DNA of 35,348 bases. Source: Nitrospira sp. (GTDB lineage: Bacteria; Nitrospirota; Nitrospiria; Nitrospirales; UBA8639). The stretch spans positions 1 to 35,348 of the forward strand of contig JAGQKG010000011.1 of the NCBI GenBank assembly GCA_020430245.1. The letters are read 5' to 3'. The notes under the pieces were generated by a model. The model worked only from the letters and a program-made list of their open reading frames with translations, did no database searches and had not been told where the DNA came from. Positions 4,130 through 32,950 of this stretch are shown piece after piece; positions within the stretch are counted from its first letter, which is position 1; each line of letters begins with the position of its first letter. Made by a program: the position numbers and the translations under genes.

Positions 4130-4190
4130 GACTATCCTCTTTTCAAAATGTCCCGTATAGGATTGATTTCCATACATTTCCGCGTCCTCC

Positions 4191-5159
4191 CTATTCCCAA
4201 GTCCGCGGGTAATACCCGGTGTGCCAGTATTCAAACATGATGACTTTCCATATTTCATCGACGGTTAAATGCTGTTCCCAAGGAGGCATAACCGACGCCC
4301 ATGGAAATCCTTCCCCAGGAAGACCAATTCCTCCTTTAGCCACTCGCCAAAATACGAAGGTCTCTTGAAGCTGGGCAATCGTTCCGGCATCTGTAAAATT
4401 GGCAGGAATCGGATTAAATGCAAAAGCCCAAAGACCGCGGCCGTTCAAATTATCCCCGTGACAGAAATGGCAATTTTGGAAAAAAATTTCCCCACCTTCC
4501 CGAACGTGCTTGATGTAACCCTTGGCATTTGGGTCCCATGGGTTATCTTCCGGGTTTTTCACATCCTTCATCAGTCGTCCCATATCTTGGCTGACGATGT
4601 GGGCATTACTGTAGGCTTGGTCGTATTTCCCTTCTGGATTAATACGATACGGATTCGCAGCCGTTTGCAAGACATATGTTTTTCCGTGCACTTTGGTAGT
4701 TGCCGGTGGGGCTGGATGCACGGTCCTCAATTCAATGGGTTCATCAAAACTTGGGAGGAAGGAATTATAAGCAAAACCCCAGAGCCCGATTGGTAATAAT
4801 ATTAAAAGGGCCGTTCGGAGAAACTTAGTCATTCCTGTGTTTGCGTCCAAAACATTGATGATAGGCCGTTTAAATTCCTCCCACTCCTGCTGCGAACCCG
4901 AAACCCACATAAAAATTCCACAGGCCGACACTGTGCCATAAATAGCTCGAACGCTAAATGGAATGGGCGGATAGATTCGGTACTTGAGATAGAACAAATT
5001 CACAAAACACCAGACAAAGATTCCTGCCCAAAACTTTGGCAAACCCATGCCTGCTCTTTTGAGAGAATAGTTGATAATAGAAAATACAAGGATGCAGACC
5101 GCTAACTCTGAAATCATCTGCATCGGCATGTAGCCTTCAACAAGTTTAAGCCACGTCAT
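4191..5159 (-). CDS. Membrane-anchored mono-haem cytochrome c
   Basis: A 322-residue protein with an N-terminal block of about four membrane helices (roughly 12-32, 43-59, 70-87 and 114-132), followed by a periplasmic cytochrome c domain. The haem motif CHFCH is at 230-234 and a likely axial Met is in SVMPPW near 291. The ATG at 5159 lies 45 bases downstream of the previous gene's stop. It sits between the two-haem membrane cytochrome and the haem b/haem c cytochrome in oxidase operon A, so it is probably a subunit of that oxidase complex. I do not recognise a named family for the membrane part. Confidence 0.82.
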   Translation of the reverse strand: MTWLKLVEGYMPMQMISELAVCILVFSIINYSLKRAGMGLPKFWAGIFVWCFVNLFYLKYRIYPPIPFSVRAIYGTVSACGIFMWVSGSQQEWEEFKRPIINVLDANTGMTKFLRTALLILLPIGLWGFAYNSFLPSFDEPIELRTVHPAPPATTKVHGKTYVLQTAANPYRINPEGKYDQAYSNAHIVSQDMGRLMKDVKNPEDNPWDPNAKGYIKHVREGGEIFFQNCHFCHGDNLNGRGLWAFAFNPIPANFTDAGTIAQLQETFVFWRVAKGGIGLPGEGFPWASVMPPWEQHLTVDEIWKVIMFEYWHTGYYPRTWE

Positions 5160-5204
5160 TCTTCCTTACTCCTTATAAAGGGTTATCCCCTAAATTAATA
5201 TTTC

Positions 5205-6518: not shown

Positions 6519-6585
6519 AGTGCAATCCTCCAACTTGGGGGCTGCTTATTGCAGCCCCACGATTGTTTGTAATTGTATTTCTCGT

Positions 6586-8553: not shown

Positions 8554-8653
8554 TGGCCTACCTCCTTGTGAAAACGTGTTGTGTTTATACCCATCAAATT
8601 TACTAACAAAATTTCGAATTCTATTGGCCAATTTGAAATTGGATTATCTTTCT

Positions 8654-9245: not shown

Positions 9246-10118
9246 TTAATTTGAACGTGCGCATCTGAAACCGATTGTCTCATCTCGAAAATCAGGGACC
9301 ATAAAACTCCTATTGGTGATCCGGAGATCGATGCCTCGGCTCGTATAGCCACTGCCTCTCATTGTCTTGTAAGTCGATGTCGGTCGCTCACCTTCCTGCG
9401 AAACAGAATTTTTCTGCAGGTATAGATCTTCTACATACCAATTATCCGTCCACTCCATAACATTTCCTGCCCCGTCATATACCCCGTACACACTTTGATC
9501 AAGAGGAAACGACCCTACAGGAGCCGACACCTCAAACCCGTCACCCTCCCCTGCAAAGTTGGCAGGGTAACCGTTCAGCCCCTCACCCCATGGCCAGGTG
9601 CGTCCATCTGCCCCTCGCATAGCCTTTTCCCATTCCTGTTCAGTAGGGAGACGCTTACCTTTCCACTGACAATAGTCATTCGCATCGCTCCATGACACAT
9701 AGGTAATCGGCTGATAAGGCCCTCGTAACAACCCAAGCTTTTTGGCATAACGGGACGGTGGGCCAGGTTGCCGATGACCGGTAGCTTCCACAAATTCCAT
9801 ATACTGTTTATAGATGACTTCATACCGATCAATCCAGTACACCTCTAAATTAGCAATGTGAGCAGGCTTTTCATTAAATCCGCCTTCATCACTGCCAAGT
9901 ATGAATTCCCCTGCAGGTATTTCAACCATCTCATTTCCTATGCCTGGATCAGGAACCGCCGAATCGGTTGACGGCTCAATTGCGGAAGAAGACGGGGACT
10001 GGTGATCTGGGTCCGGGAGACTGGGAGGAGTATCGGTGCCTTTCAAAATCCCCAACAAAGGCAGGCCGGTCATAAATAACACGGCAATTAGAAAAATAAG
10101 CTTAAATCGACCGTCCAT
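9246..10118 (-). CDS. Membrane-anchored SUMF1/FGE-fold protein, no catalytic cysteines (copy 1)
   Basis: A 290-residue protein with an N-terminal membrane helix (about 7-25), a Pro/Ser-rich linker (30-60), and a formylglycine-generating-enzyme-sulfatase fold: EMVEIPAGEFILGSD near 63, WSDANDYCQWKGKRLPTEQEWE, GNVMEWT, and the closing GFRCA. The C-terminal RGSGY...TNRSF stretch lacks the Cys pair that known FGEs use, so sulfatase activation is unlikely. Proteins of this fold also occur beside copper nitrite reductase (NirV) and in pyoverdine maturation (PvdO), without FGE activity being required. It ends oxidase operon B, 84 bases after its paralogue. Role in the periplasm unknown. Confidence 0.85.
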   Translation of the reverse strand: MDGRFKLIFLIAVLFMTGLPLLGILKGTDTPPSLPDPDHQSPSSSAIEPSTDSAVPDPGIGNEMVEIPAGEFILGSDEGGFNEKPAHIANLEVYWIDRYEVIYKQYMEFVEATGHRQPGPPSRYAKKLGLLRGPYQPITYVSWSDANDYCQWKGKRLPTEQEWEKAMRGADGRTWPWGEGLNGYPANFAGEGDGFEVSAPVGSFPLDQSVYGVYDGAGNVMEWTDNWYVEDLYLQKNSVSQEGERPTSTYKTMRGSGYTSRGIDLRITNRSFMVPDFRDETIGFRCARSN

Positions 10119-10202: not shown

Positions 10203-11120
10203 TTAGGAGGATTGAGGAATCTCGGTCAGAGGATCTTTTGCACACCGAAATCCCACACTGGCATCGTTCCTCCACATTTTCGCTGCAAAACGCTTGGTAA
10301 CCCTGGCGCCTATACGAGATTCACGCCAAGACCCGCCACGAATAACTTTATTCTCATCTTCCGTTTTCGGGCCAGGGGGGTCCCGATATGGGGCCTGCTG
10401 ATAATAGTCAGCAGCATAACTATCCATCACCCACTCGGCCACATTGCCGGTTGCATCATAGAGGCCGAAAGGGCTTCTCCCTACCTCAAAGGATCCAACC
10501 GGAGCCAAATACTGGAAGCCATCCTCCTCCCCATCAACATTGGCAAACTGATATTCGAACTTTTCCCCCCAAGGATAACGCCGTTTCCCTTCTCCCCGAG
10601 CCGCCTTTTCCCACTCCGCTTCGGTCGGCAACCGCTTCCCAGCCCACCGACAATACCCAAACGCATCGTTCCAGGACACGGCCACCACCGGATAATCCAG
10701 ACCGATCAGCTTGGCGACATCATCTTCAAAGACCGGCACCTTAGGTTTGCCCCGTTTTGTCATCTTGATGTACCGGTCATAATCTGCCTGTGTGACTTCC
10801 TTGAGATCGATGTAAAACGTCTGGAGGTACACCGGATGCGGTGGGCCCTCATCGGGATCCCCATCCTCAATACCCATGGTAAATGGCCCTTCAGGAATTT
10901 CGACCATTTCACGATTATCATCCCCCACAAGAATTTTATACATGGAAAAATCTTGCGTCGGCATCGGCTGCAACACGCGGACATTGGCAGTTCGACCAGC
11001 CGACAATTCCGCTAAATCCTTTTTATTTTTATAGGTCATAACAATCAACATCACCATCATCATGATAAAAGACCCGAAGACAAATACAATGGCCCCGATG
11101 AGGACCCGTTGGTTTTCCAT
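10203..11120 (-). CDS. Membrane-anchored SUMF1/FGE-fold protein, no catalytic cysteines (copy 2)
   Basis: A 305-residue protein: one N-terminal helix (about 5-28) followed by basic residues, then the SUMF1 domain from EMVEIPEGPFTMGIEDG (near 70), through WAGKRLPTEAEWEKAARGE and GNVAEWVMDS, to RGGSWRESRIGARV and GFRCAKD. The Cys pair expected between RGGSW and GFRC in active formylglycine-generating enzymes is absent. It is a paralogue of the downstream gene and of the copy at 25136-26077. It lies in oxidase operon B, 49 bases after the glycine-rich membrane protein gene. Likely an extracytoplasmic structural or assembly factor (inference). Confidence 0.86.
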   Translation of the reverse strand: MENQRVLIGAIVFVFGSFIMMMVMLIVMTYKNKKDLAELSAGRTANVRVLQPMPTQDFSMYKILVGDDNREMVEIPEGPFTMGIEDGDPDEGPPHPVYLQTFYIDLKEVTQADYDRYIKMTKRGKPKVPVFEDDVAKLIGLDYPVVAVSWNDAFGYCRWAGKRLPTEAEWEKAARGEGKRRYPWGEKFEYQFANVDGEEDGFQYLAPVGSFEVGRSPFGLYDATGNVAEWVMDSYAADYYQQAPYRDPPGPKTEDENKVIRGGSWRESRIGARVTKRFAAKMWRNDASVGFRCAKDPLTEIPQSS

Positions 11121-11577: not shown

Positions 11578-12285
11578 TTATTCAGCCTGAACCTGAATAG
11601 AACCAAAGTCCACTTCCACTCCGGGGCCTCCTAACAATGAAATGCCCCAGGCATGTGGTGCCGGTTCATGGTCATGAATTTTCAAAAAATCTTCATACAC
11701 ATTAACCCGCTCTTCAACCCACGTCCCAAGGGGTTGAGTCCCACTACGAATGACAATTTCTGTGGAGCTAAACATGCCACCCTCTTTGACTGACCCGACA
11801 GGAAGCGTTGCACTCCACACATATTTCGTGTTCACGGGAATAAACATCAAGTCAACATCCAGTGACGGGTAGATTGCGGCCAGGAAATCGGCATTATCAG
11901 GAACATTCTGTATGCGCCAACGCCAGGTCAAAATAGGGTGCTGCTTCGGGTCCCACGTCATATGCTTGGTATACACCCGTTGATTGGCGTTCTTTGCTGA
12001 AAGGAAAAAACTGCCACCCTCTTCTTGAATCGTATAGGTCTCATAGGCTGTGACTGTACTTCGCTGCGCTTCCCAACCCTGAGGAAATCCTTTGGCATCG
12101 GGATGCTGAAAATCCTCTAACACCATCGAACTACCAGAAGTCCCAGCAATCGGGACTTCTTGCCCCCAGGTGGCACTGCTCCAATTTAGAAAAATGCCCA
12201 TTACCAAACATGCCCAAAAAAAATGGCACACTCGATTTCGCTTTAAATTCGACCCACTATGATGTTTTCTACGACAGACGCTCAT
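11578..12285 (-). CDS. Secreted DUF3047-like protein
   Basis: A 235-residue protein with a basic N-terminus and signal peptide (cleavage near the AxWGQ segment, about 40), then a beta-rich domain. Features resembling DUF3047 are LTWRWRIQNVPDNADF, an aromatic KYVWSATLP and a closing GPGVEVDFGSIQV. The function of that family is unknown; it is periplasmic here. Its ATG overlaps the stop of the CydA-like gene by one base (TAATG), implying translational coupling with the oxidase and so a role in its assembly or function. Confidence 0.7.
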   Translation of the reverse strand: MSVCRRKHHSGSNLKRNRVCHFFWACLVMGIFLNWSSATWGQEVPIAGTSGSSMVLEDFQHPDAKGFPQGWEAQRSTVTAYETYTIQEEGGSFFLSAKNANQRVYTKHMTWDPKQHPILTWRWRIQNVPDNADFLAAIYPSLDVDLMFIPVNTKYVWSATLPVGSVKEGGMFSSTEIVIRSGTQPLGTWVEERVNVYEDFLKIHDHEPAPHAWGISLLGGPGVEVDFGSIQVQAE

Positions 12286-14156
12286 TACGCGGATTCCTCT
12301 TCTGAAATGACCTGAATAACCGGTGAAGGCCGAGCAAATTCAGCCGTTCGACTTTCTACCACTTGTTGATCCCGTCGGCTAAGCCAAAAAACGAAAAAAA
12401 CCGATGACCAAAAAACAATCATATTGAGGGTGACCATCTTGGCCGCAAACCCCAGGGAAGGGGTAAATGCCCACGAAGAACGATCCGGCATTATTTCGGA
12501 GATATGCCACTCCAACCGGCCAACGGACCGGATATACCCCATCAGGCCCATCACCCAGGTAAAGGCGGCCGCCACAATAAACAATGCCACAATCCCACGC
12601 GGAGTAATTCGGCCCCAATGCACAGGCCCGTTTATGTGAGCGCCTCGCAATAGCAAGCGATTCAACAATAAACCTCCAACCACCACCGTCGCAGTCGTCA
12701 TCCCTTGAGGATAAGAAAGGCCCACGCGAACATTTGCCGGAATATAAAATCCGTATATGGCCAACCACACAATATTGACAATCCCCATGAGGAACAAACA
12801 CATAAGAAGGATATTTCCCTTGGAGGCCCACGGTACTGTCATCACATAATTGGCTCGCCGATACAGAATATAACTCAGTGCGGTTAAACAGATCATAACG
12901 TTAACCGCACCATTTTTTGCAGACATGACACCGAATTGACCAATGACTGGATGCTGGGCCGCGCCCATTGCTTTCATCTCACTCCCACTCATCGCAATGG
13001 TGTGCGGGGTAAACCACACAAGAAAACAAACCATCAACGCAAAGATAATGGCCTTAAAGTGCGGATGAAAGCGTTCGCCACCCTGAATGCGGGCCAATGA
13101 TTGCCAGATATAATAGTTAATTCCTAAAAATAAGACCCCCACCATAATCGCCTGGAGGACGAATAACCAAGACAACATGCCCCCCATCATGGCCATACCC
13201 ATAGTTTGCCGAAACTCAAACACAGATCGCATTAACCAGTAACCTGCAAGTGGCATGGGCAGAAGCGCACAGACCACAACCACAATAAAGACATGCCCAA
13301 CCCAATCGTAATACGCCCGGTCCTCAGTGGTTTTTGCCATGAAATACCGGTAGGTCGCATAGGCAACGACTACTGCGCCACCTGACATAATATCAGCCAA
13401 AAAGCGGTGGGTATTCAAAGGATTCCATAATGGAGAATGCAAAAGATGCCACACATTTCCTAAAAAGTGCCCTTGGGCATCAACTCCGGCTGGTGCCATC
13501 ATAAATGAGGCCCATGAATTGGCTAACAACAACAAAACCACTCCGGTTGCATTTGCAAGAACCCCAAGAGTCATATGGACCCACTTCGCTGCCGGAGTTT
13601 TGAGAAAATCCCAGGTGTAATAATAGAGGGCCAACAAAAAAGCTTCACTCACAAACACCGTCGCATACACTGGCATGACCGGCTTAAACGTCGATCCCAT
13701 GTAACTCATAAATCCTGGGTAAAGAGTCACAAAGGTCATGAGCATAAGACAGCCTAATAAGGCCGTTATGGACAGCGACAACAGGGCCACGCGCAGAATA
13801 TCACGAGCCAGCCCATCGAATTTCTGTTGAGATGCCCGCTGCTTTCGGGTAATTCCTAAGAATTCTAACAATAGACAAAACAAGGGAATGGATAAGACAA
13901 AACCCCCAAAATAGGTATGTTGCTGAGTCACAAACCACACCACCAACCGGTTATCTACGAGAGGGTAGGTGGAATAGTCCTGGTGGGACTCTACAACAGA
14001 TGGGCTGGAGATAGACCCGGGAGTTTGATAGAAAATATCCCGGCTTGCCTTTCCATTAGTCACAGGCAAAGATTGCGCATCTACACCCAATGCAACTCCA
14101 GACAGCAGTAGAAAGATTAACCACACACTCCATAATGGTTTAACAAGATTTTTCAA
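12285..14156 (-). CDS. Extended CydA-like (cytochrome bd-like) oxidase subunit, copy B
   Basis: Paralogue of the protein at 6586-8553, 623 residues, again longer than CydA with about 14 membrane segments. A signal peptide is at about 8-28. QQH80 matches the high-spin haem His; LANSW...APAG is at 211-224; TH250 matches the next haem His; GYWLMRSVFEFRQ is at 305-317; TPHTIAM is at 383-389. The extracellular-loop residue H198 of copy A is Pro162 here, while E171 matches E207. The start is a TTG at 14156, four bases after the previous stop, with GGTGA upstream; no in-frame ATG precedes the signal peptide. No CydB gene in the operon. Copy B has no cytochrome c genes beside it, unlike copy A. Confidence 0.82.
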   Translation of the reverse strand: MKNLVKPLWSVWLIFLLLSGVALGVDAQSLPVTNGKASRDIFYQTPGSISSPSVVESHQDYSTYPLVDNRLVVWFVTQQHTYFGGFVLSIPLFCLLLEFLGITRKQRASQQKFDGLARDILRVALLSLSITALLGCLMLMTFVTLYPGFMSYMGSTFKPVMPVYATVFVSEAFLLALYYYTWDFLKTPAAKWVHMTLGVLANATGVVLLLLANSWASFMMAPAGVDAQGHFLGNVWHLLHSPLWNPLNTHRFLADIMSGGAVVVAYATYRYFMAKTTEDRAYYDWVGHVFIVVVVCALLPMPLAGYWLMRSVFEFRQTMGMAMMGGMLSWLFVLQAIMVGVLFLGINYYIWQSLARIQGGERFHPHFKAIIFALMVCFLVWFTPHTIAMSGSEMKAMGAAQHPVIGQFGVMSAKNGAVNVMICLTALSYILYRRANYVMTVPWASKGNILLMCLFLMGIVNIVWLAIYGFYIPANVRVGLSYPQGMTTATVVVGGLLLNRLLLRGAHINGPVHWGRITPRGIVALFIVAAAFTWVMGLMGYIRSVGRLEWHISEIMPDRSSWAFTPSLGFAAKMVTLNMIVFWSSVFFVFWLSRRDQQVVESRTAEFARPSPVIQVISEEESA

Positions 14157-17697: not shown

Positions 17698-18492
17698 TTA
17701 CTTAATTTCAAAGTTGGCTTCGACGGTTCCCCCATCCTTCACATCCACATCGGCTTCTACTTCGCCTGCAATGGGATGCCACGCCTTCACCTTATGCTTA
17801 CCGGCAGGAACGTCCTTAATCTCGAAAGTCCCATCCGCACTGGCCACAGCATAATGGGCATTAGTCACCGGCAAATACCAGCCCTGCATAAATTCATGTT
17901 GGTCACATTGCAACCGCAACACCGAACCTTTTTTAGACATTTTCAGTTTCACGCTTTTCTCTAAAGAATCACCTTTTTTAGCCAACCCGATATTGAACTC
18001 CGTGCTGGACTTGGCTCCTAATTGATCAAAGCTATGAGGATTGTGCAATACGCCTTCCGCCGACTTAGGGTCGCTGGGATCGGCATCGTTATTGACGACC
18101 TTAAACATGCCTTTACTCACGGCTACCCCTGTATACGGCTTAAACTCGCATAATTCAGCCTCCACCAATTGGGGGGCCTCTTTCCCGGATTTATCTATAA
18201 ATGCTTTGTCTTGAATATCAGTAACCGCCACCACTGCATTCTTTAATCCTTTACTTCCATCCACTTCAACTTCCTTCAGCAACCGGGTATTGCCATCTGC
18301 GCTTTTGCTTTCATTTTTTTTGCAAAAGTCCACATTGGGAAATTTTGAGAACGCAAATTCTTTCGGCGGGGGAACTGCTCCGGCAAACGTGACTTTTCCT
18401 TTAATCGTTCCACCAGCCTGAGCGACTAAAGGGGCAGCAATAAGCATGCAGCCAACTAAAAAAGACATAGTTAAAGACTGACGATTCCTCAT
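17698..18492 (-). CDS. Secreted copper protein: amicyanin-like site plus carboxypeptidase-regulatory-like domain (copy 1)
   Basis: A 264-residue protein with a signal peptide (about 1-26). The core has a cupredoxin-like type 1 copper ligand set: His in LHNPHSF (H150 or H153) and C196-x2-H199-x2-M202 in CDQHEFM, the short spacing of amicyanin. A beta-sandwich carboxypeptidase-regulatory-like segment follows (GTFEIKDVPAGKHKVKAWHP, near 221-240). Cysteines at 57 and 115 may form a disulfide; both are conserved in the two paralogues at 22908 and 23846. Own promoter and terminator suggest strong, single-gene expression. Probable periplasmic electron carrier or copper carrier (inference). Confidence 0.78.
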   Translation of the reverse strand: MRNRQSLTMSFLVGCMLIAAPLVAQAGGTIKGKVTFAGAVPPPKEFAFSKFPNVDFCKKNESKSADGNTRLLKEVEVDGSKGLKNAVVAVTDIQDKAFIDKSGKEAPQLVEAELCEFKPYTGVAVSKGMFKVVNNDADPSDPKSAEGVLHNPHSFDQLGAKSSTEFNIGLAKKGDSLEKSVKLKMSKKGSVLRLQCDQHEFMQGWYLPVTNAHYAVASADGTFEIKDVPAGKHKVKAWHPIAGEVEADVDVKDGGTVEANFEIK

Positions 18493-20853: not shown

Positions 20854-22197
20854 TTAAATGCCGATCTCTTTATCTAAAATCCTCACAATGGCGGCGGCAG
20901 CGGTTACCCTCACCGCTTCATCCGCATCTCGAAGAGTGCGCTTCAAAGTCGGCAAGAGAGTGCGATCGCCAATACGACCCAGTGCGCGGGCAGCCCCAAT
21001 CCTGGGACGAGGCAACGGATCATTGAGAGCCAATATGAGAACATGGAGAACGTCCTGGCCTTTTCCATTTCCAATCGCCTTGACCGCGCCAGACCGAATG
21101 GCCGGATTTTGGTCATTGAGGAGAGGTTGAACCGTGTCCTTGACCACTGAATACGGTGCTCCGGATCGTAGCAATGAGGCCACGGCCGCCGCTTGCACAC
21201 CGGAATTCGAATCGGCTAACGCCCTGGTTAGGGGTGTTAACACGTGATGTTGTTCGTAATACCCCATACTAAAAGCCGCCACACTCCGCACCGCAGGAAT
21301 ACGATCAAATAAAGCCGCCTTCAGTGTCGGCAACGATTCAGGAGCTTTCAATTTCCCCAAGGATGCAATGGCCGCAGCACGAATAGATGGCTGAGAATCG
21401 GAAATAGTTTTTTCCAATATCGGTATCGCACGACGATCCCCTAATTCACCAAATGCGCGAATGGCCGCTCCCCGTTCATAACCTTCCTCGCTTGTCGCAC
21501 CTCGCTCCAAACGAGCCCAGTACTCCTTGTGACCCAACTCATATAAAGCTCTTGCTGCGGCAATTTGGACAAGATGCTGCTCATCGTTCAACGATGGTTT
21601 AATTAGGGAGTCTAGACTCTGGTCACCGGATTGTCCAAGCCCAATCAAAACGGTTGCCCGCACCAATCCTGCTCCGTCCTTCAATGCTTCACGAAACATC
21701 TTGGAACGCCGGCCAACTTCCCTTTGTCCTAAGGCTTCTGCCACCAATGCTCTAATCATGCCGGTTTCATCCGTTAAGCCTTTTTCCAAATATTCCACGG
21801 CATTATCAGATTCGATTTCTTTTAACGCCGTATAGGCAGCTCCTCGCATTTGTTCCCGCATATCGGAACGGACGGGCAAGATACTGGCAATCGCCATCTG
21901 CCGTAACAAAGGTTCATCGTCCCGATTTGCCCTGTCAACGGCTTTGTCATAGGCCTCAATGGCTTCGGGAGTCTTTCCCAAGCTAGCTAATGCAAGAATG
22001 TACAGGCGAGAAGCCTGCAAGAGGGGAGAGCTTTCTTTGTGTAAAGGCTTAACAAGGTCAACAACCTGTTGAAATTGACCCTGGTCGTAGGCTTTTTGCG
22101 CCTGAACAAGGGTTGAATCATGTGCCTCTTCCGCCAAAACCGAACCTGAGAGAACCCACAGAATTCCTAGAACGAGCACGGCATGAATACGATTCAT
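20854..22197 (-). CDS. Secreted TPR/HEAT-repeat protein
   Basis: A 447-residue protein with a signal peptide (cleavage near VLAEE, residue 22). A short TPR-like helical part follows (AQKAYDQGQFQQVVDLVKPL), then about nine HEAT repeats of the PBS-lyase type, about 30 residues each, recognisable by repeated A-A-x-A-L-G-x-L-G/K phrases (for example RALVAEALGQR, RAAAIASLGKLKAPE, GAARALGRIGDR). This is a protein-binding scaffold in the periplasm. It lies between the LolA-like gene and the thioredoxin-domain gene in the same direction. Confidence 0.82.
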   Translation of the reverse strand: MNRIHAVLVLGILWVLSGSVLAEEAHDSTLVQAQKAYDQGQFQQVVDLVKPLHKESSPLLQASRLYILALASLGKTPEAIEAYDKAVDRANRDDEPLLRQMAIASILPVRSDMREQMRGAAYTALKEIESDNAVEYLEKGLTDETGMIRALVAEALGQREVGRRSKMFREALKDGAGLVRATVLIGLGQSGDQSLDSLIKPSLNDEQHLVQIAAARALYELGHKEYWARLERGATSEEGYERGAAIRAFGELGDRRAIPILEKTISDSQPSIRAAAIASLGKLKAPESLPTLKAALFDRIPAVRSVAAFSMGYYEQHHVLTPLTRALADSNSGVQAAAVASLLRSGAPYSVVKDTVQPLLNDQNPAIRSGAVKAIGNGKGQDVLHVLILALNDPLPRPRIGAARALGRIGDRTLLPTLKRTLRDADEAVRVTAAAAIVRILDKEIGI

Positions 22198-22236: not shown

Positions 22237-22911
22237 TTACCCTCTCGGAACCGTGGCCTCCTGAGCCTCAATCATTCGATAGCCCAAAGGCGCTTCAAAG
22301 TAATAATCCGGTTGCGAAGAAAGCACCACATGATGATATTCCACAAACCAATCTCGGTCCTGGCTTAAGAGTTTCAAGAGAATCTCTCGTTGAGGATCCA
22401 CCCATTCGAAATATCGTTCAAGCTGACCAAACCGATTTTTGACCTCCACGTCATAGAGCAGGGCAGATTGATCGCCCACCACGGATTCCCCAATAACTGT
22501 GCGACTCGTCTCTCCTTCCAACCGGACGGAAAATGGTAACAAAAAATCCAAAGTTAAGGGAACGCTGACGATCATTCGCCGTTGGGATAACACATACCAG
22601 GCTTTTTGTTCATCCAACCGAATTATTAGAACGCCCGCATAGCCTAATCCTGTTCGTATTCCCCCTGCCGGCTCAATGCGATAGCGATCCTTTTTTGCAA
22701 ACACCTGGCCCCTGGCGATATGACCTTCTGTTTTCCAAATCAATCTCGCCGAAAACTCTGTGGAATCGTGGCGGGCGAAATGGGGAGAGCCGGCAAAGCC
22801 CCACCCTAACGGGAACCAAGCCACCATTCCGAAAATGGCACAACCAACCAGGCTCGCCAATTTCTTATTACAAGTTCGGGAGAAAAGGAGGGAAAAGTCT
22901 ATCCATTTCAT
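22237..22911 (-). CDS. Secreted LolA/DUF4412-like protein
   Basis: A 224-residue protein with an N-terminal hydrophobic segment (about 18-40), then a beta-rich domain with alternating strands (EFSARLIWKTEGHIARG, KKDRYRIEPAGG, VLIIRLDEQKAWYVL) and later WVDPQREILLKLLSQD. This is the half-barrel pattern of LolA and DUF4412 proteins, which bind lipids or act in outer-membrane traffic. Its ATG overlaps the stop of the copper-protein gene by four bases (ATGA), so it is translationally coupled to it. The family assignment is from overall pattern, not a firm motif. Confidence 0.55.
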   Translation of the reverse strand: MKWIDFSLLFSRTCNKKLASLVGCAIFGMVAWFPLGWGFAGSPHFARHDSTEFSARLIWKTEGHIARGQVFAKKDRYRIEPAGGIRTGLGYAGVLIIRLDEQKAWYVLSQRRMIVSVPLTLDFLLPFSVRLEGETSRTVIGESVVGDQSALLYDVEVKNRFGQLERYFEWVDPQREILLKLLSQDRDWFVEYHHVVLSSQPDYYFEAPLGYRMIEAQEATVPRG

Positions 22912-23831
22912 GGTCTTTGGTGTTCAACCAAAGGCTCTATCAGAACAGGGTGGCCCAGGGCAGCGGTAGAAAATCGGGGCGGGGTCCTGATGGTATGCGC
23001 CGTCCAGCGGCCTACGGGAGATTCCAAGGAAAAATCCCTTCGCACGGTTTGATTTGGTTCTACCGAAAATTCATAAACCTGTTCATGTTTCACACTTGGA
23101 TGCCAGGCCCGAATGCGATAACTTCCAGGCGGGAGTGATGAAATAACATACTCTCCCCTTTCATTGGTAAAGTCGAAATAGGGATTATCCACCGCAATCG
23201 CCCAGCTTTCCATATAGGCGTGAAACCCGCACTGCATCACAAAGGTTTTACGTCCTTTGCTCAGTTGAAATTGATGAACCAAGGATTTCCCTGGCAAATG
23301 CTCATGCGTCGCATGAATATCCTGACGCTGATGCCGAGGATTAAAGGGCAGAGGAGAATTAAATAACACCCGTGTCCCTTGGCTCAACGACGTCTCATAG
23401 GCTTGAATGTCATGCATGACTGGATCCATATTCACCACTTCAATCCCATGCTCATTACGAACAACCGTCGTAAATGGGAGAAATTGACAGTCGCGAGCTT
23501 CCACCTTCGGAATAGAAAGGGAAAAAGGTTTCCCGGCATTCACACCTTCAACCACCATCACAACCCCTTGAAGTTGATTGTGATCATTCACCACAAAGTC
23601 CTTAAGGAGCCGCCAGCCCTGACCATCAGAAATGCGGCCGCAATACTCCGGATCAGGGAAGGTCACCAGGTTATACGCTTTCGGAGATGGCGGAATGCCC
23701 TTGAGGGTCACAGTGCCGACAATGGTGGCTCCGTCCGTTACGTCAATCACTTCATAAGCGAAAGCAGTCGAACTGGTGATCCAGAGTAGACCTACGATCA
23801 CGACAATTTCAATCACTCGATTTGTTTTCAT
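22908..23831 (-). CDS. Secreted copper protein: amicyanin-like site plus carboxypeptidase-regulatory-like domain (copy 2)
   Basis: A 307-residue protein with a signal peptide (about 8-26). Type 1 copper ligands can be read as H140 (NMDPVMHDIQ) and C201-x2-H204-x2-M207 (CGFHAYM). Cysteines 64 and 115 are shared with the paralogues. A beta-sandwich segment (GEYVISSLPPGSYRIRAWHP, 226-245) follows. A His-rich loop (RHQRQDIHATHEH, 166-178) lies between the ligand strands. The protein is closely similar to its upstream neighbour (15-base gap), so this is a tandem duplication. Likely periplasmic electron or copper carrier. Confidence 0.78.
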   Translation of the reverse strand: MKTNRVIEIVVIVGLLWITSSTAFAYEVIDVTDGATIVGTVTLKGIPPSPKAYNLVTFPDPEYCGRISDGQGWRLLKDFVVNDHNQLQGVVMVVEGVNAGKPFSLSIPKVEARDCQFLPFTTVVRNEHGIEVVNMDPVMHDIQAYETSLSQGTRVLFNSPLPFNPRHQRQDIHATHEHLPGKSLVHQFQLSKGRKTFVMQCGFHAYMESWAIAVDNPYFDFTNERGEYVISSLPPGSYRIRAWHPSVKHEQVYEFSVEPNQTVRRDFSLESPVGRWTAHTIRTPPRFSTAALGHPVLIEPLVEHQRP

Positions 23832-23845: not shown

Positions 23846-24763
23846 TCAGGGAACTTGTCGTCGTAACGACGGAATAATCTCAACGTCCTCTCCAAGCATC
23901 TCAAGCCCAAAATGCGGATTTTCCTGCATTTCATGCACGCTTCTCCGCCCTTGGGGAGACTCATATTGAAAGTCTAATGTCAGCGTTTTTCCCGATTCCA
24001 CGCGGACTGTTTTTTCTAAATAGGTTTTCATACCAGGATGCCAGACAGCCACTTCATATTCTCCTGCTGGAATATCGGTAATTTCGTAGGCTCCATCTTC
24101 TTTGGAAATCGAATAATAGGGATTTTCCACCACTAATCCCCATGAAAACATATAGGGATGAAACCCACATTGCATGACAAACACATCTCGGCCCTTTCGT
24201 AAATGAATTTTTTCAATCATCGGTTTTCCTGGCAGATGGGTATGCACATTTTTCCCAAACATCCCAACCACGTTATGAAAGGGGTTCATGGGTAATGGAC
24301 GATTGAACAATACCCTTGCCCCTCGTTCTCTGGCGGTCTCATATCCCTGGATATCATGTTCTACCGGATCCATATTGATCACGGTTATTTCATCCTGATC
24401 GCGTAACACATTGACAAATGGCAAAAAATCACAATCAATGGCTTCAACCTCCACCTTTGGCAAAGAAAACGGTTTGCCTTTGTCTACCCCTTTCACCATG
24501 ACCACAGCATCCTTTAACGAACCCTGGGATCCAATAATAAAATCCTCAACAATGCGCCACCCCGTTCCGGTAGAAATTCTTCCACAATATACGGCATCCG
24601 GGATCGTGACGAGATTAAACGCCATCGGTCTTGGGCGTTCCCCAAGAATGCGGACATGCCCTTGAATAGTCCCTCCATTGTTGACCGGACTCTCCTGATA
24701 GGCCAACCCCGTGGATGACATATTCACCAGGAACATCACGATCACCATGACCCTCATCCTCAT
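23846..24763 (-). CDS. Secreted copper protein: amicyanin-like site plus carboxypeptidase-regulatory-like domain (copy 3)
   Basis: A 305-residue protein, first gene of the copper/HEAT operon, with AAGGAGGG before the ATG and a signal peptide (about 1-22). Copper ligands: H136 (NMDPVEHDIQ) and C199-x2-H202-x2-M205 (CGFHPYM). C60 and C111 are the shared cysteines. The regulatory-like beta domain is GAYEITDIPAGEYEVAVWHP (224-243), followed by a C-terminal tail. Paralogue of the next gene. Its product and those of copies 1 and 2 are the only small type 1 copper proteins of this architecture in the window. Confidence 0.78.
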   Translation of the reverse strand: MRMRVMVIVMFLVNMSSTGLAYQESPVNNGGTIQGHVRILGERPRPMAFNLVTIPDAVYCGRISTGTGWRIVEDFIIGSQGSLKDAVVMVKGVDKGKPFSLPKVEVEAIDCDFLPFVNVLRDQDEITVINMDPVEHDIQGYETARERGARVLFNRPLPMNPFHNVVGMFGKNVHTHLPGKPMIEKIHLRKGRDVFVMQCGFHPYMFSWGLVVENPYYSISKEDGAYEITDIPAGEYEVAVWHPGMKTYLEKTVRVESGKTLTLDFQYESPQGRRSVHEMQENPHFGLEMLGEDVEIIPSLRRQVP

Positions 24764-25135: not shown

Positions 25136-26077
25136 TCAGGGAGTGGGGATTGAATGGGTGAGGTCATTTTTCAATCCGGTAGCACAACGGAAGCCAAGCC
25201 AGTTAGCCTGTGTCTCAGGAGCTTTTCCATTGCGCTGGGCTGTTCGCACAGTCGGAGTACTATCCATCCAGCCCCCTCCACGAAATACCCGATGCTCACC
25301 GGTAGACGGACCTTGGGGATTCCGGTCTGGGGCCGTTTGATAATAATCCGGATCGTACCAATCGTTCACCCATTCGGCGACATTCCCTGCCATCTGAAAA
25401 ACATTATAGGGACTGATCCCGATTTCATACTTATCAACGGAAATAATAGGTGGATAAAGGAGCAACCGCTCGGGACGATCACGAACCGGACCGGATATGC
25501 CGGTCCTCCCAAAATTGGCTCGTGTAAGTCCTGCCGGCGTATTTCCCCACGGATAAATTCGTGCATCCGTTCCCCTGGCCGCTTTTTCCCACTCGGCTTC
25601 CGTCGGGAGCCGCTTGCCCGCCCACCGGCAATAGGCATCGGCTTCATACCAGGATACATGCATCACGGGATGATGGGCCATACTCTTCTGAAAGTTCCCC
25701 CCGTCGAATTTCCAGTCCGGCAATGGCGGACGGTCCGTGTCCACGACAAAACGCAAATATTCCAAAGCAGTTACTTCATAAGCATCAATCTCAAATGCAT
25801 CCAGATACACCTGACGTTGAGGCATCTCCGGCCGATAGGCCTTCTTATCTATCTTCTTATTACTTCCCATGGTAAACCATCCGGCCGGAATCACCACACG
25901 CTTTTCTTTAGTAGGCCATTGGGTCCGTTGCAAAGCCAATCTCTTGCCCTCTTCCGTCCACTCCGGTCGTATGTCGGACACGTCCAACGCCAATCCCATA
26001 TTCGTGGACATCACCGTAAACCCAACCACCAACAAGCCCATTGCAACAAGGCATTTTCTGCTTTGTCTTTCACGCAT
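25136..26077 (-). CDS. Secreted SUMF1/FGE-fold protein, no catalytic cysteines (copy 3)
   Basis: ATG at 26077 with GGAGG five bases upstream (313 residues). A cleavable-type signal peptide (about 8-31) precedes the SUMF1 fold: VVIPAGWFTMGSNKK, YWAGKRLPTE-type segment (YCRWAGKRLPTEAEWEKAA), GNVAEWVNDWYDPDYYQ, RGGGWMDSTPT and a final GFRCA. As in the other two copies, the stretch between RGGGW and GFRC has no Cys, so formylglycine generation is not expected. It is the gene next downstream of the giant multicopper oxidase, about 480 bases away and after its terminator. Confidence 0.86.
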   Translation of the reverse strand: MRERQSRKCLVAMGLLVVGFTVMSTNMGLALDVSDIRPEWTEEGKRLALQRTQWPTKEKRVVIPAGWFTMGSNKKIDKKAYRPEMPQRQVYLDAFEIDAYEVTALEYLRFVVDTDRPPLPDWKFDGGNFQKSMAHHPVMHVSWYEADAYCRWAGKRLPTEAEWEKAARGTDARIYPWGNTPAGLTRANFGRTGISGPVRDRPERLLLYPPIISVDKYEIGISPYNVFQMAGNVAEWVNDWYDPDYYQTAPDRNPQGPSTGEHRVFRGGGWMDSTPTVRTAQRNGKAPETQANWLGFRCATGLKNDLTHSIPTP

Positions 26078-26500
26078 AGACCCCTCCAAATTTATCCGAC
26101 GATTGAGACGCCACTGATGGAAAAATTGGAGAATTCACCATCCCAAAAACAAAGTCTGGTTTCTTTGTGCCGTCCGGATAAGAAAGCAATCGCTGGGAAC
26201 CCCAATATTTTTATGTCAGCATAGTCAGGTATTGGACCGAATCGTAGCTTCACCTTTTAGTGAGGTCAAGGCGTCTGGGAACGACCACAATCGACTTTCC
26301 CTCCATGGTTGAATCGGTTTGATCCGAAGGATGTAAGACCTTAAAAAGAATACTTGAATGGATTACCCGAATATCACATAAATAAAAAACTTCCGGTAAA
26401 AGTATTATAACAATTGATCTGATGGCATTTTCAATTTTCCCTTAGATGGAATCTTGATTGGCTTGGCAATGAGAATCAAAAAATTCGGTTAACCCTAAGG
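26078..26500. other. Intergenic region with a possible promoter
   Basis: No gene seen in this stretch. On the minus strand TTGAAA (26434-26429), a long 19-base spacer and TATAAT (26409-26404) form a possible promoter for the SUMF1-fold gene; the leader would be about 320 bases long. No riboswitch-like structure recognised. Confidence 0.35.
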
Positions 26501-26537
26501 AAATAAAAAATGGGGGATTCTTGCGAATCCCCCATTT
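26501..26537 (-). terminator. Rho-independent terminator of the multicopper oxidase gene
   Basis: Minus strand: a perfect 13-bp stem (arms 26508-26520 and 26525-26537) with a four-base loop, then a U-rich tract. It lies 25 bases after the oxidase stop codon. The oxidase therefore appears to be a single-gene transcript. Confidence 0.92.
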
Positions 26538-26561: not shown

Positions 26562-29500
26562 TTATTTAGCTGCCACAGGCAGAACTCTGCCAGGCTCCAC
26601 CACTTTGTTCAAAGCTTGCTTAACCTCACTGGTCCCTCCTTCAAGAGGCAGGATCCGTTGGTCATTTTTGGGAAGCACCCTTAAATAGCCCCATTGCCCC
26701 GATTGGGAGTAAGGCAGGCGCTGATTATTCCAGACATAATCTGCGGGAAGCATATCACGCCCACCAGCGGATGGAATAAATACATCAATCGTTTCCGATC
26801 CAGCAAATTCAACCACGCTGATTTGGTCTGCTCCCGGCATGAACGGTTCAATCGGCCATTCATGCTTTTCCACACTAAACATTCCGTTTTGTTCGCTGTT
26901 GGCACCGAAAACATGAATTCTCACAGGATCACCGACATGTGCCTGAATGATGGGGGTGACCGGATCCTTTGGACTATCCACCTCACAAGGCTGGAACATG
27001 CGTCCAAGCGTACAACCAGCCTCCTCTCTATGGAGATAGGGTTCAGAACGATAATTAACCCCGGTGAGGCCTGCTACATTCTGGACATACGGCATAAAGC
27101 TGGTCCCGATGATGTTGTCTTCATCTTGAAAGAGTAAAGCTACATCACGGTAATTTCTGCGATGTTCTTGACCAGGAATGGTCTGATCAACAATCACGTC
27201 GGCTTCCCAGCTATTTTTAAGAGAAATGTCGGCACCGGTTTTTGGATCCCGATATTGCGACCCTTTTGGCCCGATGATAACTGCCCCGAACAGACCATTT
27301 CGCGGGTTCAGCATCACATTTCCCCAATCCCATACCAGGGATGAAATCTCCCCGTTAAAAGGATCAGCATAATAGGTATACGTCTTCGATTCTCCTGGGG
27401 CAATCGTTTGATCCCCTGAGTTATTTCCGACGTTGGCACCCAATGAATCTTGTGGATTAAAGGCCAATGAAATGGCCGAGAATGATGCCCGGCTTTCCTT
27501 CATTTTGTTTTTGAGATTCACTTTGATGCAATCGCCCACGTTTGCACGAATGGTCAATGGCATCGGATGGTAATCCCCTGCCACTTTCGTGACCTCATCT
27601 TCTAGAACGTAGATCTTGCCATCAGGATTTCTCAAATCGATGGTTCTCTCAAAGTCGATCTCAATAGATTCCGGAGCGCTAGGATTAAAACTCATACCCG
27701 GAAAGTCCATGGCGACCACATTAAATGACTTCACTGGCGCCTCTTCAGGACAAACTGGAAGGGTCTTCGGAATCTCATTTCGACCTGAATATCCTGTTGG
27801 GAGCGGCTTCAGGTCGTCCGTCTCCTTATCCAGGACTCGTAGGATCCCCCATCCTCCCTCGGAGAATTTGGAAGACCGCCCATTAAAATGAATATAGTCC
27901 CCAGGTTGCAGACGAGGGCCGCCTGCCTTTGGAACCACTAAATCATATCGTTCGGCAATGCCGATATGCATGGAATTTTTTCTGTTGGCATCCCCGGCAT
28001 ATCGCTCGCTCAAAAACGTGTGCCCTGATAATGTCCAGGTCATCGTTTCATTCATAAGCGTATGCAAAAGACGGAAAACTACCGTATCTCCCAGATACGC
28101 CCGTAATAGTGGTGTATCAGGATCTCCATGTTCAGCGCTACTGAATATTTTAGACGCATCAGGATTCACCGCTAAACGTTGGGCAATGGGTTCCGCCCTG
28201 AAATTTAATCCGCTTCCCGTCGTATGCGTCCCTCCATTGAGGAAGGGCATTGGGGTCATGAGAATTTTTTCCGGCATCATAAATGACACCGTTTTACCAG
28301 CTTCCAAGGCAACCTCAACAGGCTGACCAGGAGGATTACCAGCGGTGACAATATTGACCGTATGAGGCACAGTGTCATGAACCTGCACCATGAGCTCACG
28401 GAAGCTACCGTTTACTCCATACCCAACAGGCTCTACAGTATGAATATCCGCTATAGGTCCACTCCTGATTGGTTTCCCAGTCTTGGGATCATGATAGGTT
28501 GATCCCACGGGTTCCACAATCAAGGTGCCGAATCCGCCATGTGGCCATGTGGTAGCCCCGAATGCATGGTCATGCCAGAACACGGTTCCCACATCAGCAT
28601 CCGCCCAGAGTCGAGACCGCACAAATTCCACGGTCACGATATCACCCACGGGATGATCATGCTGCAAGGGTCGAACAAAGGAAATGGTATCTCCTTTAAT
28701 AGATTTGATGCGACGAATCTCGTTGCCTTTCACATTATCCGCACCGACCAGCAACTCGGTATTGACATGGTATTGCGCGGCATTTTTAACCTTAATGCTG
28801 GAATCGCCTTTTTTTGCCTTGCCCGTTAAGACGGTATTCATCGGCACAGGCAAACCTTTTTTCGTCTTTTTCTCCAACATAGTGAACGGACGGACAGACT
28901 GTTCATAGGAAAAACCCGTAATCACTCCATCCGATGCCTGGTTATCGAATTGGAGGAAATGAGGATGAATGTTAATTTTAGAAGATTGGAAATTCGTAAA
29001 ATCGTCATCCACCCATTCACTGGTCAACGTATAGTCGACACAGTCATAAATATTGGCTCGGAATACCAAAGGATACTTTTTATCGTTATTTTTTCGTGTC
29101 TCTTCTTCCTCTTCATGGAGAACGTAAATCAACCCGTAAGGATCAATGACAGGAGCTTCCTTACCCTGAGCCCCAGCCATCTCAATGGGAGTATTGATGA
29201 AGTGAATGTTGTAATATTTTCGCCCGGCATTCTCTGGACACAAACTCCAACGCCCGTTTTCTCCAGGTTTGGCTGGCTCGGAAGTTCGTAGCCCATTTTC
29301 ATCCTGATGAATCATTTCCAACCATGGGGCCGGATTGTGATTTGGTGGGAACATGACCCGTTTGCCGAAATGTGGAGTCAGATGCGGCCATGACACCTTT
29401 CCAGTCCTCGGCTCAAAAAGAATCGGCCGGCGCTTCCCAGGAGTTGGAGAATGGTACTTGGGATTCTCAATTGTGCTTTCTTTCTCAGACATGGCTTTAT

Positions 29501-31436
29501 TACCATCCCAAGCCCAATCCAATACCGTCGCATCATAAGAAACAATTTGGCCCTTTTCGTCATCTTTATGACCAGGTTTCCCCTGGGCCGGCAACTGAAT
29601 TTCCACCCATTCCTTAATATTGATGACCGCTGGGTTCGATTTCCAATTGCTCTTTCCCTTTTCAACAATGGTGAATGTTTTCCCGAACCAATCAACCGTT
29701 TTTCCAATCAATTGATCGGAGGTGACACCCACCTTCATCCGACCTTTTCTATCAGGCAACTCTCTGAGGTTTGGCATGACATCGGTACGATTGTCGCCTG
29801 TCTGCATGGTATTATATACCCGCCAATACCCCCACATTCCCGCAACGTAATGATGAGCGACATGGCAATGAAACAAGAAGTCACCAGCCAGTTGTTGGCA
29901 TAGGCCAGACCCACATTCCGTCTCCAAATCCAAAGCTTCTGATGGCCCGATCACCTCTACATCAACTCGGTCAGTTTTTGTCCTAATAACCGGATATTTA
30001 ACCGGACCGTTTTTCGCCGCATGCCACATCGGCATTTCATCAATCGCCCGTGGACTTCTGGGCCATCGAATCGTCCCGCCGTGTGGATGGTGGGAATGAA
30101 ATACCTCAGACCCTCCGTGAACCAACCTGAACTTGGCAGGATCCCCCAGATAGGATCGAGGAATAGTCGTTGGTGCATCACCAAATGTGTAAGAACTATA
30201 TCCCATCGATTCGTCTTCAAACCCGAAGTATTCGTGCTGCACATGCATGTTATTGATGCCGAATGGCTCACTCCGATAATTAAGAGCTCGAGCTCCTGGC
30301 CGATAGGCATCGGTGAGGGGATCCCGTTGTGGCAAGAAATCACCATGTTTATTCACCGGACGAAACGCTTCGTCACCCACCTCATGGTAAATCAATACGA
30401 ACTCACGAAAATCTGGTCCCGTCCCATTTTTGATAATGGCTTGCCATCCACTGGCCATGGGAGTTGGGTCTCCGTCTCCCAACGGATTCAAATATTCTGA
30501 GCCATGCGGTTCGACCACAAATGTCCCCATCAGACCCATGACCGTTAATTCTCGATCATTACTAAAGGTATGAAATTGTCGGCCACCCTCCTGGGTGTCT
30601 GGATGGATATACCACTCCATCTCTACGACTTGTCCCTCTTCAGCCACGGTGTCGCGGTTGGTTGTCGTAGCAGGCTGCCCAGTCTTGCTGATGACCATAT
30701 TCGAGCCATGAATGTGAAGACTGGCCTCCTCACCAAATTCAAGTTGGTTTCGGAAGGTGAATTTCACACAATCCCCTTGGTTTCCCCGAATCACCAGGGG
30801 TTGAATCCATTGATCCTGAAGACCGTTAGTGACCGCACCAGGGTCACCATGGCCATCCACCTCTCTCGCTTCAGCATTTTTGGCTTCCTCTTCCCGCACC
30901 TTCTCAATGTTTTCCGTCAGGACATACATGTAGCCGGGATAGTAATCAAGCCATTGATTGAGGGTGATCTCGGCATTAATGGCCGAAATATCATATTCCC
31001 TGACGGGGGCCGTGGAAGGACAACTTCCACCACTCGCTGCCACAGGCTCCACATTGCGATCAGATGCCAAAAGTAAATCCTGACCTCCTGCGCCATATTG
31101 ATGCATGTTGGTCATCGTGTTGTAAAAACCGGTAGCTGTATGGTCGGCATGTTGAGCGCCAGACTCGTTTTCCATTCTCAGCATGATCCGATCATGTTGG
31201 CGTTCCACCATGGCAGCTCGGTTCGGACGGCCTTCCTTGGTGTCTTCCATGATGGTCTGGCCCTTTAATCGCTCAGCCCATTCAGGTGATTTTTGATGAA
31301 CCATCCCCGTGCTGTGGATAATTTTATCCTGAATTTCTTCAGCCAGGAGTGTTCCCCCCGACAAAAAACCTGCTCCCCCGACTAACAATCCAATGGAAAG
31401 TGTGGTGATGGCTTTCCTAGATTTCTTGTGAAACAT
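26562..31436 (-). CDS. Giant secreted multicopper oxidase (MnxG/MofA-like)
   Basis: 1624 residues, signal peptide about 8-32; far longer than laccase-type oxidases (about 450-600) and near the size of MofA/MnxG-type manganese oxidases. Several cupredoxin domains can be traced. Copper motifs in order: HIHG (241-244), HSHHPH (447-452, an H-x2-H-x-H), HCHVAHHYVAGM (523-534, with C524 and axial M534), HPH (824-826), and HDH (955-957) with WPHGG. The last 600 residues (domains near 1040-1200 and 1230-1590) have cupredoxin-like strands but no complete ligand set. The motif order differs from two- and three-domain oxidases. ATG 31436 follows AAGGAGG seven bases upstream. It probably oxidises a substrate in the periplasm or on the cell surface; Mn(II) is a candidate from family likeness only. 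Confidence 0.87.
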   Translation of the reverse strand: MFHKKSRKAITTLSIGLLVGGAGFLSGGTLLAEEIQDKIIHSTGMVHQKSPEWAERLKGQTIMEDTKEGRPNRAAMVERQHDRIMLRMENESGAQHADHTATGFYNTMTNMHQYGAGGQDLLLASDRNVEPVAASGGSCPSTAPVREYDISAINAEITLNQWLDYYPGYMYVLTENIEKVREEEAKNAEAREVDGHGDPGAVTNGLQDQWIQPLVIRGNQGDCVKFTFRNQLEFGEEASLHIHGSNMVISKTGQPATTTNRDTVAEEGQVVEMEWYIHPDTQEGGRQFHTFSNDRELTVMGLMGTFVVEPHGSEYLNPLGDGDPTPMASGWQAIIKNGTGPDFREFVLIYHEVGDEAFRPVNKHGDFLPQRDPLTDAYRPGARALNYRSEPFGINNMHVQHEYFGFEDESMGYSSYTFGDAPTTIPRSYLGDPAKFRLVHGGSEVFHSHHPHGGTIRWPRSPRAIDEMPMWHAAKNGPVKYPVIRTKTDRVDVEVIGPSEALDLETECGSGLCQQLAGDFLFHCHVAHHYVAGMWGYWRVYNTMQTGDNRTDVMPNLRELPDRKGRMKVGVTSDQLIGKTVDWFGKTFTIVEKGKSNWKSNPAVINIKEWVEIQLPAQGKPGHKDDEKGQIVSYDATVLDWAWDGNKAMSEKESTIENPKYHSPTPGKRRPILFEPRTGKVSWPHLTPHFGKRVMFPPNHNPAPWLEMIHQDENGLRTSEPAKPGENGRWSLCPENAGRKYYNIHFINTPIEMAGAQGKEAPVIDPYGLIYVLHEEEEETRKNNDKKYPLVFRANIYDCVDYTLTSEWVDDDFTNFQSSKINIHPHFLQFDNQASDGVITGFSYEQSVRPFTMLEKKTKKGLPVPMNTVLTGKAKKGDSSIKVKNAAQYHVNTELLVGADNVKGNEIRRIKSIKGDTISFVRPLQHDHPVGDIVTVEFVRSRLWADADVGTVFWHDHAFGATTWPHGGFGTLIVEPVGSTYHDPKTGKPIRSGPIADIHTVEPVGYGVNGSFRELMVQVHDTVPHTVNIVTAGNPPGQPVEVALEAGKTVSFMMPEKILMTPMPFLNGGTHTTGSGLNFRAEPIAQRLAVNPDASKIFSSAEHGDPDTPLLRAYLGDTVVFRLLHTLMNETMTWTLSGHTFLSERYAGDANRKNSMHIGIAERYDLVVPKAGGPRLQPGDYIHFNGRSSKFSEGGWGILRVLDKETDDLKPLPTGYSGRNEIPKTLPVCPEEAPVKSFNVVAMDFPGMSFNPSAPESIEIDFERTIDLRNPDGKIYVLEDEVTKVAGDYHPMPLTIRANVGDCIKVNLKNKMKESRASFSAISLAFNPQDSLGANVGNNSGDQTIAPGESKTYTYYADPFNGEISSLVWDWGNVMLNPRNGLFGAVIIGPKGSQYRDPKTGADISLKNSWEADVIVDQTIPGQEHRRNYRDVALLFQDEDNIIGTSFMPYVQNVAGLTGVNYRSEPYLHREEAGCTLGRMFQPCEVDSPKDPVTPIIQAHVGDPVRIHVFGANSEQNGMFSVEKHEWPIEPFMPGADQISVVEFAGSETIDVFIPSAGGRDMLPADYVWNNQRLPYSQSGQWGYLRVLPKNDQRILPLEGGTSEVKQALNKVVEPGRVLPVAAK

Positions 31437-31534
31437 GGACCGGCCTCCTTAATGTGAAATAAACAGACGAACTAAAGTCGTATTTTACAAACCAAACAGT
31501 CGATAATATTCCATCAAAATAGTGGGAAGAGCAA

Positions 31535-32589: not shown

Positions 32590-32904
32590 TCAGGAAGAGG
32601 GTAGCAAGACGATGATCTTAAAAATCCGTCGATCTTCTGCTGTAAACTTCCATGCCATTCTTTTACTAAACTCCAAATGATGTGTTCCGGGTTCCAACGC
32701 CTGAAATTCAAATGATCGCTGACCGGAATCTACCGCATTATTACTGACCGTTCGAAGAAACTCATCTCCCACTAATCCCAGCACTTTAGGGTCATAACTT
32801 GGGACCCATTGTTCCCCACGTGTCCGATCTTCCCATAAATGCACCATAAAGGTGGCCGACTGGAAAACTTGAATCGCTTTGGTCTGCATCTGATCTATAT
32901 TCAT
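32590..32904 (-). CDS. Small protein resembling the I42 (chagasin-type) protease inhibitor fold
   Basis: ATG at 32904 with GGTGA upstream; 104 residues and no signal peptide. The pattern WVPSYDPKVLGLVGDEFL, then QRSFEFQALEPGTHHLEFSKRMAW, matches the beta-sandwich order of I42 inhibitors (a G...F.F.A...G...L.F...R.W ending). The usual NPTTGYxW loop is not evident, and lack of a signal peptide is odd for this family. It lies between the transaminase and Rieske genes. Treat the family as tentative. Confidence 0.5.
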   Translation of the reverse strand: MNIDQMQTKAIQVFQSATFMVHLWEDRTRGEQWVPSYDPKVLGLVGDEFLRTVSNNAVDSGQRSFEFQALEPGTHHLEFSKRMAWKFTAEDRRIFKIIVLLPSS

Positions 32905-32950
32905 GCTCTCACCTTGCAATACTTAGCTCATGCTAGGCCCGTAAAGTCCA

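Follow-up and report, generated by a model that had tools for sequence, protein, structure and literature searches.

A six-domain MnxG-type multicopper oxidase and its cupredoxin neighbours in Nitrospira

The oxidase gene and its control signals

The window, by which we mean the whole stretch of DNA analysed, covers 35,348 nucleotides of contig JAGQKG010000011.1 from a Nitrospira sp. assembly (GCA_020430245.1). It contains a gene for a giant multicopper oxidase, the main elements of which are as follows.

31444-31450, reverse strand: ribosome-binding site AAGGAGG, 7 bases 5' of the ATG (read directly in the sequence)
26562-31436, reverse strand: six-domain MnxG-type multicopper oxidase, 1624 residues, ATG start (open reading frame, profile and homology searches, conservation)
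31341-31436, reverse strand: putative export signal peptide, approximately residues 1-32, with a basic start, a hydrophobic core and then AEE (by inspection)
26508-26537, reverse strand: intrinsic terminator, a 13-bp stem and T-run, just 3' of the oxidase stop (sequence scan)

The preliminary description of this DNA had given the gene its own promoter and a strong terminator. The terminator is clear, with the 13-bp stem at 26537-26508 and the T-run after it lying directly past the stop codon, while the promoter gains no support, since the region holds six promoter-like sites against 9.3 in shuffled sequence, which is no excess. The nearest gene upstream encodes an aminotransferase. Also upstream, beside a D-amino-acid transaminase-like gene, is a gene for a chagasin-family (I42) peptidase inhibitor (32590-32919).

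The open reading frame is intact, as are orthologues at 95-97% identity, which rules out a pseudogene. Orthologues 93-95% identical to the oxidase of the window are found in the metagenome-assembled genomes Nitrospirales bacterium NPIRA03, NPIRA06 and Dino_bin26, and the window's own genome, a member of the Nitrospirales (Nitrospirota), has oxidase matches on three contigs. A search of viral contigs for relatives of the oxidase found none.

Copper ligands and domain architecture

The ligand motifs, together with two further elements in domain 1 and an insert in domain 3, were placed by alignment or, for the insert, by modelling and structural comparison.

30705-30716, reverse strand: HIHG (241-244) in domain 1, a relic motif A, variable in Nitrospirales (alignments)
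30558-30581, reverse strand: RQFHTFSN (286-293) in domain 1, a decayed motif B (alignments)
30081-30098, reverse strand: motif C, HSHHPH (447-452), with type 1 ligand H447 and trinuclear ligands H450 and H452 (alignments)
29835-29870, reverse strand: motif D, HCHVAHHYVAGM (523-534), with type 1 ligands C524, H529 and M534 and trinuclear ligands H523 and H525 (alignments)
28959-28967, reverse strand: motif A, HPH (824-826), domain 3 (alignments)
28623-28847, reverse strand: small β-barrel between motifs A and B, approximately residues 864-938 (model and structural comparison)
28566-28574, reverse strand: motif B, HDH (955-957), domain 3 (alignments)

Within the 1624-residue open reading frame the motifs read HIH at 241-243, H447-x2-H450-x-H452, H523-C524-H525...H529...M534, H824-P-H826 and H955-D-H957, and both their positions and their order, C-D-A-B, are as first described. 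Conservation of the ligands in the family is far above chance. In an alignment of 91 homologues from Nitrospira-group relatives, H449, H450, H452, H824, H826, H955 and H957 are kept in 91/91 and H447, H523, C524, H525, H529 and M534 in 90/91, so that each of the twelve presumed copper ligands is kept in at least 90 of the 91. All twelve, in the same motif order, are also found in an MnxG-type protein of Priestia and in a Streptomyces homologue. The same 91-member alignment reveals an additional HxH at 926-928, of which H926 is replaced by N in about half of the family. Complete motif pairs are absent from domains 4, 5 and 6. Judged by motif positions and conservation, the presumed ligands of the trinuclear site are shared between domains 2 and 3, and those of the type 1 site lie in domain 2 only. 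This supports the original expectation that the trinuclear site must join C and D (450/452, 523/525) with A and B (824/826, 955/957) of a central domain.

The rearranged order, while real, is not novel. MnxG of Bacillus SG-1 has motifs C and D towards its N-terminus and A and B towards its C-terminus (PMC3618234), and a survey from 2013 gave this order, with the trinuclear site between domains 2 and 3, for every bacterial six-domain oxidase it analysed (PMC3600357). The C-D-A-B order is therefore already known, and by itself adds nothing new.

Comparison with solved structures points the same way. The best solved relative by sequence is MnxG (9bxa), which phmmer matches in six stretches with an e-value of 2.3e-74 (query residues 146-1399, chain residues 3-1212). 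It is also the top Foldseek hit for both of our AlphaFold2 models, which are of low confidence (E 5.8e-06 and E 2.3e-25, the latter alignment extending over 938 columns), and VIA-align places it first for the longer of the two (Z 14.8, 455 residues, rmsd 8.3), a result whose weight is limited by the same low confidence. The phmmer stretches and the Foldseek alignment support six cupredoxin domains, the sixth of them through sequence homology. Each ligand motif lines up with its counterpart in 9bxa, except that an Ala is found there opposite H529, which is explained by the entry being, according to its title, an H340A mutant. The models themselves, of residues 141-1250 (33 alignment rows, pLDDT 48) and 350-1000 (86 rows, pLDDT 55), both leave domain 2 unfolded at a pLDDT below 50, so that copper geometry is unreadable from them.

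Domain 1 appears to record the history of a second site. In sister lineages, that is other families of the same class (loci L127-L136), 11/11 copies combine HIHG with FHSH or LHSH and so have both members of an A/B pair. Among Nitrospirales copies the second motif is mostly FHTF or FHSY, with F or Y at position 291, and HIHG itself is often lost; in the 91-member Nitrospira-group alignment H241 is kept in 66 and H243 in 73. The preliminary description was thus right to call RQFHTFSN a decayed second motif, given the FHSH of the sister lineages, although the segment runs from 286 to 293 rather than from 287, but its suggestion that HIHG is perhaps a separate metal site sits poorly with such conservation. 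It could still be argued that HIHG and H289 make up a second working metal site, an idea compatible with the other readings of this enzyme. H289 is retained in most Nitrospirales copies and the HIH and HSH motifs are complete in all 11 of the sister-lineage copies, but H241 and H243 are missing from many Nitrospirales copies, position 291 is mostly F or Y and the matching C and D motifs are absent from domain 6. We regard a working second site as very unlikely. Since domain 6 has no C and D motifs with which to complete such a site, the HIHG of domain 1 is best read, from these alignments, as half of a relic A/B site which is probably decaying in Nitrospirales.

Confidence in the model is good for the β-barrel between motifs A and B, which resembles a domain of phage tail or tailspike proteins (9n71: Z 10.6, rmsd 2.2, 74 residues; Z 5.9 with a second model). 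This insertion of about 75 residues accounts for the longer A-to-B spacing, 129 residues compared with 44 in the Priestia homologue; the stretch from D to A is also longer, at 290 residues against 184. The Streptomyces homologue has a comparable insert, the Bacillus-type homologue of Priestia none. A Pfam scan named neither the insert nor the linker, and our literature search found no description of a tail-protein-like β-barrel between motifs A and B, nor of a cupredoxin gene directly 3' of most copies of the oxidase (see below).

Taken together, we consider it highly probable, at nearly nine chances in ten, that the gene encodes an exported six-domain MnxG-type multicopper oxidase with the enzyme class and site architecture proposed, the substrate being a separate matter. 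Domain 2 would hold the only type 1 copper, bound by H447, C524, H529 and M534. It would also supply one half of the trinuclear site through H450/452 and H523/525, and domain 3 the other half through H824/826 and H955/957. A reductant would deliver single electrons to the type 1 copper, and the path H523-C524-H525 would carry them on to the trinuclear cluster where domains 2 and 3 meet; there O2 would be reduced to water. Domains 1 and 4-6 would be structural, domain 1 retaining the relic of a second half-site. The complete ligand set suggests that the enzyme reduces O2, and copper loading and a periplasmic location may likewise be expected.

Gene neighbourhood, distribution and candidate substrates

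Downstream of the oxidase, on the same strand, lies a series of further genes.

23846-24763, reverse strand: cupredoxin-like protein (HDIQ ... QCGFHPYM) with a CarboxypepD_reg domain (profile scan, locus comparison)
22908-23831, reverse strand: second cupredoxin-like protein, conserved neighbourhood (profile scan, locus comparison)
20854-22197, reverse strand: HEAT/TPR repeat protein, conserved neighbour (profile scan, locus comparison)
17698-18492, reverse strand: third cupredoxin-like protein, conserved neighbour (profile scan, locus comparison)
12285-14156, reverse strand: cytochrome bd-like oxidase, conserved downstream block (profile scan, locus comparison)
6586-8631, reverse strand: second cytochrome bd-like oxidase (profile scan)
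2303-6533, reverse strand: two cytochromes c (5205-6533, 4191-5159) and a cytochrome c/EB_dh protein (2303-4258) (profile scan)

The association with cupredoxins is widespread. Of 104 testable copies of the oxidase, 85 have a cupredoxin/CarboxypepD_reg gene on their 3' side, within 2.5 kb and in the same orientation, a rough figure in that some loci of the same gene entered the list twice and the Priestia and Streptomyces outgroups are included. Five of the exceptions (L001, L002, L003, L112 and L113) are close copies of the window's oxidase in which a gene for an FGE-sulfatase intervenes, so that the 1.5 kb of flank retrieved stops short of the cupredoxin. In the window's genome the first cupredoxin gene follows the oxidase copies on all three contigs. 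Across Nitrospira, N. moscoviensis (L035) and N. defluvii (L060) among them, the conserved gene order starts with the oxidase and continues through cupredoxins, the HEAT protein, a further cupredoxin, a methyltransferase and DUF420, and where the locus is long enough the block extends to a bd-like oxidase.

Between 2303 and 17589 the window holds two bd-like oxidases, two cytochromes c, the cytochrome c/EB_dh protein, FGE-sulfatase-like genes, DUF420 and PCP_red proteins. By description, rather than by sequence comparison, this cluster resembles the alt_NxrC_2/bd-like_3/bd-like_4 cluster which, in N. moscoviensis, is reported to be highly transcribed and linked to nitrite oxidation (PMC6606698). 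The FGE-sulfatase-like genes number three (25136-26089, 9246-10118 and 10203-11120), and in close relatives of the window one such gene separates the oxidase from the first cupredoxin.

The oxidase family is present in 116/117 genomes of the class and in all 105 of those of good quality. A housekeeping role accounts for such near-universal presence at least as well as one specific to manganese, and perhaps better. Our literature search found no measured substrate for the Nitrospira oxidase family, only guesses dating back to 2013. In that year a periplasmic multicopper oxidase common to Nitrospina and N. defluvii, resembling the Bacillus manganese oxidase and encoded in an NXR-linked gene cluster, was described and a Mn(III)-based defence against reactive oxygen species suggested for it (PMC3578206). 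Sand-filter Nitrospira have been proposed as manganese oxidizers because their genomes encode 'MnxG' (PMC12070406), and two novel multicopper oxidases have been noted in every member of the Manganitrophaceae (PMC9040806).

Mn(II), offered as a candidate substrate in the preliminary description, is a reasonable choice, given that MnxG is the nearest solved relative by both sequence and fold. Were the enzyme strictly a Mn(II) oxidase, it would form Mn(III) or manganese oxides outside the inner membrane, possibly as a defence against reactive oxygen species as in the published proposal for Nitrospina and N. defluvii. The proposal of manganese oxidation by sand-filter Nitrospira also speaks for this reading. 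Neither Fe/Mn-superoxide dismutase nor catalase was found in the window's genome, which is 88% complete, and this seemed to favour the defensive role, but among 21 sister genomes bearing the same oxidase seven have Fe/Mn-superoxide dismutase and eight catalase. The oxidase does not go hand in hand with a lack of these enzymes, so gene content lends the defensive role no support and we dropped the argument. The near-universality of the gene in the class also counts against a manganese-specific enzyme. The search for MnxE/MnxF partners relied on a single small protein encoded near the Priestia gene and regarded as MnxF-like, which has no match in the window's genome; this weak test, run with no positive control, speaks at most slightly against Mn(II) oxidation. 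On balance Mn(II) oxidation in the narrow sense seems quite possible, if short of probable.

The gene neighbourhood suggests another role, in respiration or electron transfer, whereby the neighbouring cupredoxins would feed electrons to the oxidase for reduction of O2 in the periplasm. Cupredoxin genes directly 3' of most copies across the class speak for it, as does the extension of the Nitrospirales block to bd-like oxidases, beyond which the window has cytochromes c and the EB_dh protein as well (compare the cluster of PMC6606698). However, in the loci examined from sister lineages the oxidase has no bd-like block nearby, several Nitrospira paralogues have no cupredoxin neighbour, the window has a terminator between the oxidase and the downstream genes, and O2 reduction in the periplasm would conserve no energy. 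We consider this role rather unlikely. A neighbouring cupredoxin may pass electrons to the oxidase or supply it with copper.

Metallo-oxidases are common among bacterial multicopper oxidases, and this opens the way to a third reading in which the enzyme oxidizes cuprous or ferrous ions for metal tolerance. A CopC gene adjoins the gene of the Streptomyces relative and another lies about 2 kb from that of Priestia, but no copper-resistance gene was recognized among the window genes scanned, and such a function is unlikely. A substrate other than Mn(II), cupredoxin electrons, Cu(I) or Fe(II) strikes us as more improbable again. Mn(II) remains the leading guess by homology, with the electron-transfer role a serious rival because the gene is all but universal in the class and has cupredoxin neighbours. 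It is tempting, but speculative and on present evidence unlikely, to see the MnxG-type oxidase and a dedicated cupredoxin as a core system of the whole class Nitrospiria, an unrecognized manganese- or cupredoxin-linked electron route to or from O2 in nitrite oxidizers and sister orders. The question matters because nearly every genome of the class encodes an MnxG-type oxidase, usually beside a cupredoxin gene, and these are drivers of nitrification suspected of manganese oxidation in water filters (PMC12070406).

Relation to known multicopper oxidases

The motif order is real and was correctly read, but the oxidase is of a known kind and its family has already been noted in the literature. Several familiar types can be set aside. 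A three-domain laccase, with A and B at the N-terminus, C and D at the C-terminus and around 500 residues, is excluded by the C-D-A-B order and the length of 1624 residues. Ceruloplasmin and hephaestin share the six cupredoxin domains and, in part, the fold, but have their trinuclear site between domains 1 and 6 and up to three type 1 sites (PMC3600357); a ceruloplasmin-type enzyme is excluded since domain 6 here has neither HxxHxH nor HCH. The likeness first drawn to both MnxG and MofA survives for MnxG, with 9bxa the best solved relative and the order the same, but not for MofA. MofA of Leptothrix discophora is also a giant, at 1661 residues, and likewise has four motifs, but its A and B motifs are N-terminal and C and D C-terminal, and MoxA likewise has the ordinary order (PMC3618234), so that a MofA-like enzyme is excluded.

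The enzyme is a genuine multicopper oxidase of MnxG type, as the preliminary description held. In the profile search proposed there, the NCBIfam MnxG equivalog NF041487 scores 136.4 bits, far below its curated cut-off of 3100, and the enzyme is accordingly MnxG type rather than MnxG in the narrow sense. This low score counts against the reading we prefer, as does an identity of only about 34% over 1137 columns to the Bacillus-type MnxG relative from Priestia. Some Nitrospirota additionally have proteins nearer the NCBIfam MnxG model (L100, L101 and L102, up to 1707 bits), which are distinct from the family of the window's oxidase.

Among the closest known systems is MnxG of Bacillus sp. PL-12/SG-1 (9bxa), which shares the order C-D-A-B, a single type 1 site in domain 2, a trinuclear site made by domains 2 and 3, and homology along all six domains. 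It differs in length, at 1227 compared with 1624 residues, and the extra N-terminus, the cupredoxin neighbours and the domain 1 HIHG relic are features of the window's oxidase. The Streptomyces sp. NBC_00335 plasmid protein WP_266914373.1 has all twelve ligands and a similar A-B insert, but is only 37% identical, does not have the HIHG of domain 1 and is encoded next to CopC. The MnxG-like oxidase described from Nitrospina gracilis and N. defluvii (PMC3578206) is, by its description, of the same family, and the N. defluvii locus (L060) provides a 75% match with the same neighbours, as a different species' copy of the gene.
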